From Altererythrobacter sp. C41 (GTDB taxonomy: Bacteria; Pseudomonadota; Alphaproteobacteria; Sphingomonadales; Sphingomonadaceae), in assembly GCF_016803135.1 (NCBI RefSeq), contig NZ_JAEVFE010000004.1, positions 260,501 through 324,500 on the forward strand: DNA of 64,000 nucleotides, given 5' to 3'. Position numbers and translations under genes: made by a program. Position 1 is the first letter of the stretch; every line of letters begins with the position of its first letter. The notes below the pieces were generated by a model. The model made no database searches. It was given only the letters and a program-made list of their open reading frames with translations, and was not told where the DNA came from. Positions 4,183-6,243 of this stretch are shown here, in pieces.

Positions 4183-5262
4183 CTAAAGCCGCATCACCCA
4201 GCCGTGGCTGTCTTCCACCCGGCCGCGCTGGATGCCGACGAGCTTGTCGCGCAGCTTGCTGGTGATCTGGCCCGGTCCGCCGCCGCCGATGGTGAACTCC
4301 CCGTCCGGTCCGGCAACCGTGCCAACCGGCGTGACGACCGCGGCGGTGCCGCAGGCCATCGTCTCGACCAGGCGTCCGCTCTGTGCGTCGTCGCGCCACT
4401 GGTCGATGGAGTAGGGCTCCTCGCGCACCGTCAGCCCCTCCTCGCGCAGGAGCTGGATCAGACTGTCGCGCGTTATGCCGGGCAGGATCGTGCCGGTGAG
4501 CGGCGGAGTGACGACGCTCCCGTCGTCGAACACGAAGAACAGGTTCATGCCGCCCAGTTCCTCGATCCACTTGCGCTCGGCGGCGTCGAGGAACACGACC
4601 TGGTCGTAACCCTTCTCGATCGCCTCGGCCTGGGGGACGAGGCTCGCGGCGTAGTTGCCGCCAGTCTTCGCAGCGCCCGTGCCGCCGGGAGCCGCGCGTA
4701 CGTAATCGCGGCTGACCCAGATCTTCACCGCCGGCGCGCCAGACTTGAAGTAATTGCCGGCCGGGCTCGCAATCAGCAGATACTTGTACTGCTTCGCCGG
4801 GCGCACGCCGAGGAATGCCTCGCTCGCGAACATGAAGGGCCGCAGGTAGAGCGATCCGCCTTCGACCGTGGGAAACCAGTCCTTGTCGACCGCGATCAGG
4901 CGGCGGATCGATTCGAGGAACATCTCCTCGGGCAGGTGCGGCATCGCCATGCGGTCGGCCGACTGGTTGAAGCGCCGTGCGTTCGCCTCCGGCCGGAAGA
5001 GCGCGATCCCCCCGTCCTCATGTCGATAGGCCTTGAGCCCTTCGAAGATTTCCTGCGCATAGTGCAGCACCGCCGCCGCCGGATCGAGGCTGATCGGCTG
5101 GCGCGGGCAGACTTTCGCGGCATGCCAGCCGCCCTTGTTCGCGTCGTAGTCGATCTCGACCATGTGATCGGTGAAGAGCGTGCCGAAACCCGGGTTGGCA
5201 AGCGCCTCGTCGCGCGTGGCGGAGGGAACCGGGGCGGCGTGGGGGATGTGTTCGAAATCCAT
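4183..5262 (-). CDS. ilvE: Branched-chain amino acid aminotransferase
   Basis: A 359-residue class IV PLP aminotransferase that makes or breaks down leucine, isoleucine and valine using glutamate/2-oxoglutarate. Lys199 in GAAKTGGNYAAS is the expected PLP-binding lysine, and EIFEGLKAYR and RPFMFASEAFLGV fit the long (BCAT type II) branch. ATG at 5262 (MDFEHIPHA) is chosen; the frame also opens at a TTG at 5298. Neither start has a clear Shine-Dalgarno sequence, in sharp contrast to the leader ORF at 5426-5482 upstream on the same strand. The gene converges on nadE across a long hairpin repeat. Confidence 0.95.
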   Translation of the reverse strand: MDFEHIPHAAPVPSATRDEALANPGFGTLFTDHMVEIDYDANKGGWHAAKVCPRQPISLDPAAAVLHYAQEIFEGLKAYRHEDGGIALFRPEANARRFNQSADRMAMPHLPEEMFLESIRRLIAVDKDWFPTVEGGSLYLRPFMFASEAFLGVRPAKQYKYLLIASPAGNYFKSGAPAVKIWVSRDYVRAAPGGTGAAKTGGNYAASLVPQAEAIEKGYDQVVFLDAAERKWIEELGGMNLFFVFDDGSVVTPPLTGTILPGITRDSLIQLLREEGLTVREEPYSIDQWRDDAQSGRLVETMACGTAAVVTPVGTVAGPDGEFTIGGGGPGQITSKLRDKLVGIQRGRVEDSHGWVMRL

Positions 5263-5330
5263 GCAGCGCCGCGTAATGGGGAGAAGCGGGCAGGGCAAGA
5301 CCGATCGTTTCGCGAAAACGCCTCTGGCCG

Positions 5331-5378
5331 CAAAATGAGAAAGGCCGCTTCGGCCTGAGCCGAAACGACCTTTCGCAT
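5331..5378 (-). terminator. Intrinsic terminator / attenuator hairpin upstream of ilvE
   Basis: On the minus strand, GGTCGTTTCGGC, a TCAG loop and GCCGAAGCGGCC form a 12-bp stem with two G-U pairs, followed by TTTCTCATTTT. It sits about 70 bases before the ilvE start and after the leader ORF. The upstream segment around 5385-5400 contains GGCCGCT, which is complementary to AGCGGCC in the 3' arm of this stem and could act as an antiterminator. Confidence 0.75.
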
Positions 5379-5410
5379 GGTCAGCGGCCGATAGCGCCGC
5401 TCACGAAACC

Positions 5411-5435
5411 TCTATCGCTGTCTGCTCAGCGATAG
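5411..5435 (-). promoter_or_regulatory. Leader hairpin overlapping the leader-ORF stop codon
   Basis: CTATCGCTG, loop AGCAGA and CAGCGATAG form a perfect 9-bp stem on the minus strand. The 5' arm lies in the last codons and stop of the 18-codon leader ORF. A second CTATCG occurs just downstream (about 5389-5394), so the 3' arm CAGCGATAG can pair with either partner, depending on whether a ribosome covers the first. Confidence 0.65.
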
Positions 5436-5482
5436 TGCCTCGCGCGGAAACGTACCGACCTCCCTGCTGAACCATGAGACAT
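5426..5482 (-). CDS. Leader peptide ORF with exceptionally long Shine-Dalgarno sequence
   Basis: An 18-codon ORF reading MSHGSAGRSVRFRARHYR. It is preceded 1 base upstream by GAAAGGAGGTGATCC, fifteen bases that are fully complementary to the conserved 16S rRNA 3' tail; GGAGG is 7 bases from the ATG, an optimal spacing. Ordinary genes in this window show only 4-6 bases of such pairing. The peptide is basic (six Arg, two His) and lacks runs of Leu, Ile or Val codons, so it is not a classical branched-chain leader peptide. An overlapping start at 5474 (24 codons) is less well spaced. Peptide expression is inferred, not proven; the stretch could instead act as RNA. Confidence 0.55.
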   Translation of the reverse strand: MSHGSAGRSVRFRARHYR

Positions 5483-5638
5483 CGGATCACCTCCTTTCGC
5501 GCTATGTAGCCGAACCTGGCGTTTCACCGCCGGGTGAGAGCCGCGCTCGCCGCTGGCCTCACTTGAGAATGTGAGTCAGCGGGCCCGGGAAAACAAGCCT
5601 TGAAAAAAACTTTTCCCACGTCAGAATTGATCGCTGTG

Positions 5639-5662
5639 GCCCGTGTTTCGCGGGCTTTTTTT
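5639..5662 (+). terminator. Orphan intrinsic terminator-like hairpin, plus orientation
   Basis: GCCCG, loop TGTTTCG and CGGGC followed by seven T form a typical intrinsic terminator reading rightward. No annotated rightward gene ends here: ilvE and its leader run left, and the next gene (5683-6243) is also on the minus strand. Either a short rightward RNA is made from 5500-5640, or it limits antisense transcription into the lipoprotein gene. Confidence 0.5.
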
Positions 5663-5682
5663 GTTGCCGCGATCACGTGAAT

Positions 5683-6243
5683 TTACCGGCAATCCTCGAT
5701 CACCCGCGTCACTTCGGGCCAGCTCGGGATATAGAGCGTCGCGAGGCCCTGGGTCTCGACCGCGAACCGCCCCTTGGAGAAGGCCATCGCGGCCAGCAGA
5801 GGATCCGCCGCGGGCAGCGTGGCGGCGAGCATGGAGAGCCCGGTGCCCGCCTGCTGTGCGGGAACTGCGCGGTCGCTGGTTTCGGTGCGGATGTTCATCG
5901 CCGTTGCTCCGGCTGCACTGCCGGCGCGGGTCATCGTGATCGTGCGCGCGGCGCGATCGCAGGTGAGCGCGAAGATCGCCTCGCTGTTTGCCGGGCCGAA
6001 CACTGCCTGCGATCCGCCCGCCGTGCTGCGGAAGTACCAGTCGCCCGGGGTAGCCGGCGCATCCATCCAGTTGTCGTAGGCCGGCGGCGCCACCGGCGGC
6101 GGGGCGGGCGCGGGCGCCGGCTCGGGTGCGGGAGGGGGCGGGGCCGGCTCCGGCGCCGGGGTGACGCAGGAGGCGAGCGCGAGGCAGGTGGTGGCAACGG
6201 CAAGGGCGCGGCGGTAGTTCAAGCGAATCTCCCGGTTTCTCAA
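5683..6243 (-). CDS. Proline-rich lipoprotein of unknown function
   Basis: A 186-residue protein with a signal peptide ending in the lipobox LALASC (Cys26), followed by an extended Pro/Ala/Glu-rich linker (residues about 27-55) that could span the periplasm. The C-terminal globular part contains two more cysteines (FALTCDRAAR and VIEDCR), possibly disulfide-bonded. No family is recognised. It lies divergently 32 bases from tlyA. Confidence 0.8.
   Translation of the reverse strand: MRNREIRLNYRRALAVATTCLALASCVTPAPEPAPPPPAPEPAPAPAPPPVAPPAYDNWMDAPATPGDWYFRSTAGGSQAVFGPANSEAIFALTCDRAARTITMTRAGSAAGATAMNIRTETSDRAVPAQQAGTGLSMLAATLPAADPLLAAMAFSKGRFAVETQGLATLYIPSWPEVTRVIEDCR

Follow-up and report, generated by a model that had tools for sequence, protein, structure and literature searches.

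The window, that is, the whole 64,000-nt stretch of Altererythrobacter sp. C41 DNA that we analysed, carries on its minus strand, at 5331-5498, a small RNA gene of about 165 nt. It probably specifies an autonomous, translated small RNA, belonging to an alphaproteobacterial family that includes the Caulobacter sRNA CC2171, with a fold gated by the ribosome and an output in trans. Sequence comparisons support its autonomy, its family relationship, the constraint on its ORF, and the helices P1, P2, and H0. From these we infer that the RNA is made and translated in Altererythrobacter sp. C41 and that translation gates its fold in cells as its function, a ribosome-gated regulatory RNA being our best reading of the element. 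Its parts and its neighbours are as follows.

5498-5484, minus strand: 15-nt Shine-Dalgarno (SD) sequence GAAAGGAGGTGATCC, read directly; complement of the free 16S rRNA 3' tail.
5426-5482, minus strand: 18-codon ORF, from ATG (5482-5480) to TGA (5428-5426), translated as MSHGSAGRSVRFRARHYR; frame and stop position conserved.
5435-5427, minus strand: segment A of the first-pass annotation, CTATCGCTG, read directly.
5420-5412, minus strand: segment B of the same annotation, CAGCGATAG, read directly.
5389-5383, minus strand: segment C of the same annotation, GGCCGCT, read directly.
5466-5476, minus strand: 5' arm of P1a, CATGGTTCAGC, codons 3-6 (RNAalifold, window fold, swap test across types, pair counts).
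5376-5385, minus strand: 3' arm of P1a, GCTGACCATG, directly before the terminator (same basis as the 5' arm).
5455-5460, minus strand: GGTCGG, codons 8-9, 5' arm of P1b or, alternatively, 3' arm of the SD-sequestering helix (RNAalifold, shuffles, fold).
5386-5391, minus strand: 3' arm of P1b, TCGGCC in the window and mostly CCGGCC in relatives (RNAalifold, sphingomonad sequences).
5446-5459, minus strand: anti-SD mimic (helix H0), GTCGG with CCGAT at 5485-5481 and CGTTTCC with GGAGGTG at 5494-5488 (fold, shuffles).
5393-5452, minus strand: P2 hairpin, stop codon close to the apex, containing the A:B pairing (swap test on 121 sphingomonad sequences).
5331-5374, minus strand: intrinsic terminator, stem 5374-5339 (16 pairs), then a T-rich tail (terminator scan and fold).
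4183-5262, minus strand: ilvE, class IV aminotransferase (Pfam PF01063), downstream neighbour outside the RNA.
5683-6243, minus strand: upstream neighbour; by eye a small protein resembling a lipoprotein, with a proline-rich linker; no Pfam match.

As for the overall layout, the SD, the ORF, the A:B hairpin, and the terminator that the first-pass annotation had singled out are all present at or next to the minus-strand places it gave, the terminator having a stem of 16 pairs instead of the 12 bp proposed. The leader peptide indeed contains no Leu/Ile/Val codon run. The SD is separated from the ATG by 1 nt (5484 versus 5482), and the 15-mer occurs only once in the 3.2-Mb genome, even with one mismatch allowed. 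The 16S tail that it complements was taken from two relatives (the 16S pattern matched 2 of 40 genomes) and not from the window's own genome; their 3' ends, GGATCACCTCCTTTCT, are covered by the 15-nt complement. A 16S rRNA antisense or pseudogene was rejected, the match being confined to the 15-nt tail, with flanks that differ from the two 16S ends. A conserved segment, TCGGCCGCTGACCATG, lies at 5391-5376 between the stop-codon hairpin and the terminator, and its helix with codons 3-9 is absent from the first-pass annotation. The whole element folds with -89.5 kcal/mol (z -7.0), a value that none of 200 shuffles reached.

Searching Rfam at the gathering threshold returned no match within the window. 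A permissive search aligned the element to RF01867 (Caulobacter sRNA CC2171, Rfam type Gene; sRNA) over model positions 1-159 of 159, with 47.7 bits and an E-value of 3.1e-9, which does not reach the curated cut-off of 75 bits. Judged by sequence, the window RNA is therefore a divergent relative of CC2171 and not a member of the family by Rfam's own cut-off. The two RNAs share the 5' block CAAC..GAAAGGAGGUGAUCC, the start codon, UCUCAU, the P1 helix, the position of the terminator, and a consensus ORF, the Rfam consensus itself reading as a 22-codon ORF with a P1 duplex. The helix of RF01867 between its UCUCAUUGUC segment and the GACAAUG before the terminator has its counterpart in the window, where CATGGTTCAGC pairs with GCTGACCATG. 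In contrast to CC2171, the window RNA has ATG rather than GTG, 18 codons rather than the 22 of the consensus, and other inner helices. When the RF01867 model was run against the class, 49 of 240 genomes matched, the window's own among them, 7 of them above the cut-off. Separately, the relative L270 scored 96.1 bits. Among 14 control genomes, Caulobacter vibrioides was the sole match.

The distribution of the RNA is broad within the alphaproteobacteria. A DNA search with 331 nt matched 28 of 59 genomes, the window's own included, and a 28-nt core was found in at least 119 stretches of named contigs, most of the 80 matches listed being from Sphingomonadales. With one mismatch allowed, the SD-start pattern AAAGGAGGTGATCNNDTGTC was present in 97 of 385 alphaproteobacterial genomes, the reversed control pattern yielding one match. 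In a draw across the phylum, it was found in 78 of 135 alphaproteobacteria, all complete genomes, versus 8 of 263 other Pseudomonadota. A 20-nt version occurs in 57 of 64 genomes of the window's family and in none of the 83 genomes searched from other families of the order. In all motif searches, as in the locating script, the SD, the start codon (ATG, GTG, or TTG), and the spacing are fixed and hence conserved by construction; only the 331-nt and RF01867 searches found loci without relying on the SD-start motif, and these were then placed with the motif too. One copy per genome is usual, and the class motif search finds the RNA in distant lineages. The first-pass annotation had named an independent small RNA as an alternative to its main proposal, and the whole-length, motif, and RF01867 searches all speak for it.

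The SD-start signature is present twice in three genomes of one sphingomonad genus (G070, G1099, G1106). G070 combines a sphingomonad-type copy (L248) with a copy of the SHC type seen in other orders (L161), a pairing suggestive of duplication or transfer. The 8 non-alphaproteobacterial matches each have one mismatch. In four of them the match is to the beginning of a long, conserved protein-coding gene, which we take to be a 2-oxoacid oxidoreductase subunit; two look unrelated, and two resemble the RNA (L271 and L272, in genomes G453 and G682 of one family). These last two have the same layout, with 18-codon ORFs, CTCGGAAAGCCGC or CACGGAAAGCCGC before the terminator, and the SD TAAGGAGGTGATCA, which fits the gammaproteobacterial 16S tail; they gave no Rfam match to E 0.1. 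In their family, 3 of 59 genomes match the pattern at two mismatches or fewer, the third poorly, and a wider search of the class of G453 matched 1 of 185 genomes, G453 itself.

For the comparisons below, we distinguished two sets. Of 148 sphingomonad-type loci, 136 have a hairpin at the place of the terminator, followed in 118 by at least 4 T within 10 nt; the other 12, of which 4 were too short and 8 had no 3' anchor motif, were dropped, and near-identical sequences were thinned to leave 123. The second set consists of 90 other-type loci, obtained from 95 distinct class loci by removing 5 with a sphingomonad-like start (L169, L190, L193, L247, L248). They are nearly all from other orders, L161 being from the window's own family.

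The ORF is constrained in its frame. All 144 sphingomonad-type loci examined have a frame-0 stop at codons 15-21, in 129 cases at codon 18, with all three stop codons in use (TAA 80, TGA 49, TAG 15), and stops in the other frames are spread over codons 4 to 93 or absent. The other-type loci start with ATG (49), GTG (34), or TTG (7), and 87 of the 90 have ORFs of 14-36 codons, versus 27 and 20 in the other two frames; the exceptions are L261, L262, and L218, which is cut by the end of its contig. L261 and L262, together with L190 and L193, have ORFs of 55-58 codons that probably encode ordinary secreted proteins. Only the stop position counts as evidence for translation, since the start codon and the spacing are part of the search motif. 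By this measure, in two sets of loci, the reading frame is under constraint, as expected of a dual-function or coding sRNA, and on that comparative evidence the RNA is probably translated.

These counts are also what a plain small mRNA would predict, in which the peptide of 14-36 residues is the product and the structures merely tune its translation. We regard this as unlikely, because the peptide itself drifts. Comparing 110 sphingomonad ORFs in 1158 close pairs gives a pN/pS of 1.47, and it is not at third positions that the ORFs vary most. These pairs are not independent, and RNA structure constrains both silent and replacement sites; the result shows no sign of purifying selection on the peptide, which is absence of evidence rather than proof that there is none. 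Save for a start such as MSH, MSS, or MSN, peptides differ between lineages, and motifs that recur, TWI and EQP among them, fall on the anti-SD nucleotides. That the frame is conserved while the peptide drifts suggests selection for translation itself rather than for its product.

The codons of the ORF are also arms of helices. In an RNAalifold consensus of the 123 thinned sphingomonad sequences, CATGGTTCAG and the GGTCGG of the ORF pair with CCGGCCGCTGACCATG before the terminator, with P2 inside; in the window this closed rod (5476-5376) has -52.9 kcal/mol. We examined P1 by a swap test, in which each 5' arm is paired with its own partner or with those of other loci. P1a hardly varies in sphingomonads, and this test concerns other types. 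In 60 loci (59 other-type and one sphingomonad-type), own partners gave -16.6 kcal/mol versus -10.7 for swapped ones, none of 20,000 permutations being as good in a test that does not preserve relatedness, and the own arm was among the best tenth in 36. Left out of this test were 30 of the 90 other-type loci in which the script found no clear terminator. The 3' arm of P1a is identical in 121 of 122 sphingomonad sequences, a set pre-filtered for the motif at two mismatches or fewer, with 8 loci dropped. P1 rests mainly on the swap test, since only 1 of the 7 P1a pairs shows changes on both sides in 20 other-type sequences. P1a is within the minimum-energy fold of 68 of 122 sphingomonad sequences; the P1 fold and the fold with a free P1 3' arm are at most 5 kcal/mol apart in 93 of the 122, the P1 fold being the lower in 101. 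In four long, Sphingomonas-type forms (L033, L036, L092, L113), an extra hairpin of the type GGGGGGTATCCTCCCCC lies between the ORF and the P1 3' arm, and looks like an SD/anti-SD pair of its own.

P2 contains the A:B hairpin proposed by the first-pass annotation, and its arms change together in sphingomonads. In 121 sequences, own partners gave -26.2 kcal/mol versus -19.6 for swapped partners (0 of 5000 permutations), and versus -21.7 for length-matched swapped partners. Outside sphingomonads, the stop codon is at the apex in 16 of 59 other-type loci and the swap test is weak (102 of 5000). A stop codon at the apex was thus rejected as a general rule; in 45 of the 59 other-type loci an apex is located about 20 nt before the stop.

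The SD is itself predicted to be sequestered by an anti-SD mimic within the ORF, in the helix that we call H0. H0 folds in the window with -19.4 kcal/mol, 3 of 200 shuffles being as good. In an alignment of 20 other-type sequences (A1), columns 21-27, comprising the 3' half of the SD, the spacer, and the first base of the start codon, pair with columns 68-74 of the ORF, and these pairs are H0. Considering H0, P1a, and the terminator together, 94.3% of cells in A1 are paired and 23 cells are changed on both sides, versus 6.1 in shuffles (0 of 500 as good) and 8 in the best slid version, for sequences that were hand-picked and a structure that was drawn on one member of the alignment. Pairs changed on both sides number 5 of 7 in H0, 3 in the terminator, and 1 in P1a. 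The covariation thus concerns the equivalent of H0 in 20 other-type sequences, the sphingomonad equivalent being weaker. The anti-SD segment beats 95% of shuffles, for which about 1 in 20 is expected, in 13 of 27 SHC-type, 11 of 43 SS/SN-type, and 9 of 18 other sequences; the corresponding figures are 38 of 123 for sphingomonad sequences, a modest enrichment, and 0 of 3 for sphingomonad-type sequences from the class set. The SD region pairs with the ORF in the minimum-energy fold of 74 of 122 sphingomonad sequences. Since H0 crosses P1, the two must form a pseudoknot or be mutually exclusive.

These structures bear on the possibility, which we judge quite improbable, that the element is a ribosome sink or decoy whose 15-nt SD serves chiefly to occupy 30S subunits or to capture RNAs with an anti-SD motif. 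Such a function would explain why the complement spans the free 16S tail of the two relatives and why loci recovered with the full 331-nt query retain the 15-nt SD, but it would require neither a fixed stop codon nor an internal anti-SD nor a long-range helix.

Toxin mRNAs such as hok are closed by long-range pairing. The Helicobacter type I toxin mRNA aapA3 has, like the window RNA, an SD-sequestering hairpin inside its ORF, as described in the accessible text of PMC6733600. It is nevertheless hardly credible that the RNA is a type I toxin-like mRNA kept inactive by folding back on itself, as no toxin-like peptide was seen: in sphingomonads the peptides are Arg-rich rather than hydrophobic (by eye) and drift freely. 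In addition, a consensus scan of 5100-5800, in this one window, found no promoter-like site antisense to the RNA, the RNA is usually single-copy and shared by distant lineages, and collections of plasmids (near mode) and phages (distant mode) gave no match. A mobile element was also rejected as the nature of the RNA, no plasmid or phage record having matched; six viral contigs do carry the SD-start motif. Three RNAs on contigs classed as viral (L180, L181, L183) are of the VSY..KRCHLAGIA type, and a locus from an alphaproteobacterial family with large genomes (L236) has a similar ORF; these viral-contig RNAs may be host flank or prophage cargo.

The first-pass annotation had proposed a translation-gated transcription attenuator of ilvE. 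In attenuators of amino-acid operons, such as the ilv and trp leaders, a leader ORF is followed by a terminator, as in the window RNA, and in the window the SD, ORF, and terminator are indeed real, with ilvE following on their strand at 237 nt from where the SD begins. However, the window RNA has no regulatory codon run, in particular none of Leu/Ile/Val codons, no conserved anti-terminator, and no conserved downstream gene. Of 175 oriented loci, 59 have ilvE downstream, in every case on the strand of the RNA, at a distance from the SD that varies from 201 to 934 nt and is once 2,967. Among the 127 sphingomonad-type loci for which 1000 nt or more of downstream DNA was available, 57 have it; it was seen in 0 of 27 other-type loci within the downstream DNA fetched, and, among the 80 matches listed, in none of the contigs whose title names Sphingomonas or Sphingobium. 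The C:E pairing proposed to open the terminator, 7 bp long in the window, is not conserved, the longest helix averaging 5.60 bp with own and 5.71 bp with swapped partners (122 sequences). An ilvE attenuator is thus very improbable and largely refuted. What persists of the proposal is a coupling of translation and structure, in that conserved helices take their 5' arms from the codons and the stop stays in its place; relatives conserve the frame and stop of the ORF, the terminator and, in sphingomonads, the P2 helix that contains A:B, but neither C:E nor the linkage to ilvE.

Other downstream genes are varied. The longest downstream ORF of other-type loci is on the same strand in 33 of 83 cases and on the opposite strand in 50, not all of these being real genes; of 28 that were tested, a Pfam family was found for 9 of 13 on the same strand and 6 of 15 on the opposite one. 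The latter are IlvD, a methionine-synthase-like protein, an integrase, a lysozyme, and two acyl-CoA dehydrogenases. Since these genes are varied and on both strands, a cis-acting leader cannot explain the RNA. The stable neighbour in sphingomonads is the uncharacterised upstream gene, which adjoins the RNA in 128 of 175 loci.

How might a ribosome-gated RNA work? The SD would pair with the whole free 16S tail and drive translation of a short ORF ending at a fixed place. The codons of this ORF would be arms of two competing folds, the SD-sequestering H0 and the long P1/P2 rod, whose 3' arm is just before the terminator. A 30S subunit on the SD would remove H0, and a ribosome moving to the stop codon would open P1 (plus P2 in sphingomonads), making the pre-terminator segment single-stranded; in the absence of ribosomes the RNA would close. 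Because codons pair in P1, and later codons with the SD, translation and folding should exclude each other, and because ribosome binding and transit must open these helices, the RNA should have a folded, ribosome-free form and an opened, ribosome-occupied form. As neither a downstream gene nor the peptide sequence is conserved, the output is probably in trans, probably via pairing, stability, or occupancy of the opened 3' strand. The extreme SD would make sense if the 16S tail must compete with an internal copy of the anti-SD.

More tentatively, and only as a possibility, the RNA could be a ribosome sensor in many alphaproteobacteria, where the anti-SD copy competes with the real 16S tail, the fold reports the number of free 30S subunits, and passage of a ribosome to the fixed stop exposes a trans-acting 3' strand, the peptide being a by-product. 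If true, this would offer a natural model in which to study the sensing of free ribosomes by cells.

Several published observations relate to these findings. The dual-function attenuator sRNA rnTrpL/peTrpL of Sinorhizobium meliloti is likewise a short RNA with a translated ORF of few codons, according to the accessible text of PMC10117765, in which one third of 54 newly found translated ORFs in Sinorhizobium are on annotated sRNAs. However, rnTrpL is leaderless and corresponds to the trpE attenuator, whereas the window RNA has a very strong SD and no conserved downstream gene. In Caulobacter, two ncRNAs described earlier are in fact translated (Schrader 2014, PMC4117421, accessible portion). 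A survey of Mesorhizobium huakuii lists MH_s33 as CC2171, and 34 of its 35 predicted sRNAs (all but MH_s6) have RNA-seq products (PMC5596092, accessible portion), while the available text on Rfam 15 names RF01867 among the families whose structure R-scape improved. The ORF, the anti-SD helix, and the class-wide spread of the CC2171 RNA are not described in the accessible text of the literature searched, most subscription journals lying outside it, and the same literature yielded nothing on full complementarity to the 16S tail. What is new here is the constrained frame, a peptide without purifying selection, the P1 arms that change together, and the anti-SD mimic with covariation. Across many alphaproteobacteria, a family filed as an sRNA gene looks translated; it combines a full-length SD with an internal copy of the anti-SD and a long-range helix that translation would have to open.

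As for the promoter, scanning 5100-5800 revealed none on the minus strand, the sole promoter-like site there being on the plus strand at 5600-5627 and pointing away from the RNA. In the Erythrobacter/Novosphingobium branch, a conserved upstream block, CCCCCGGTGAAACG...TTGGCT, is present with no obvious promoter (by eye), and it differs from what is found in other-type loci. Many of these, including L155 and L156, show by eye a CTTG...TATA-like promoter upstream, and in L155, L156, and further other-type loci a conserved TTCAACAA lies directly 5' of the SD.
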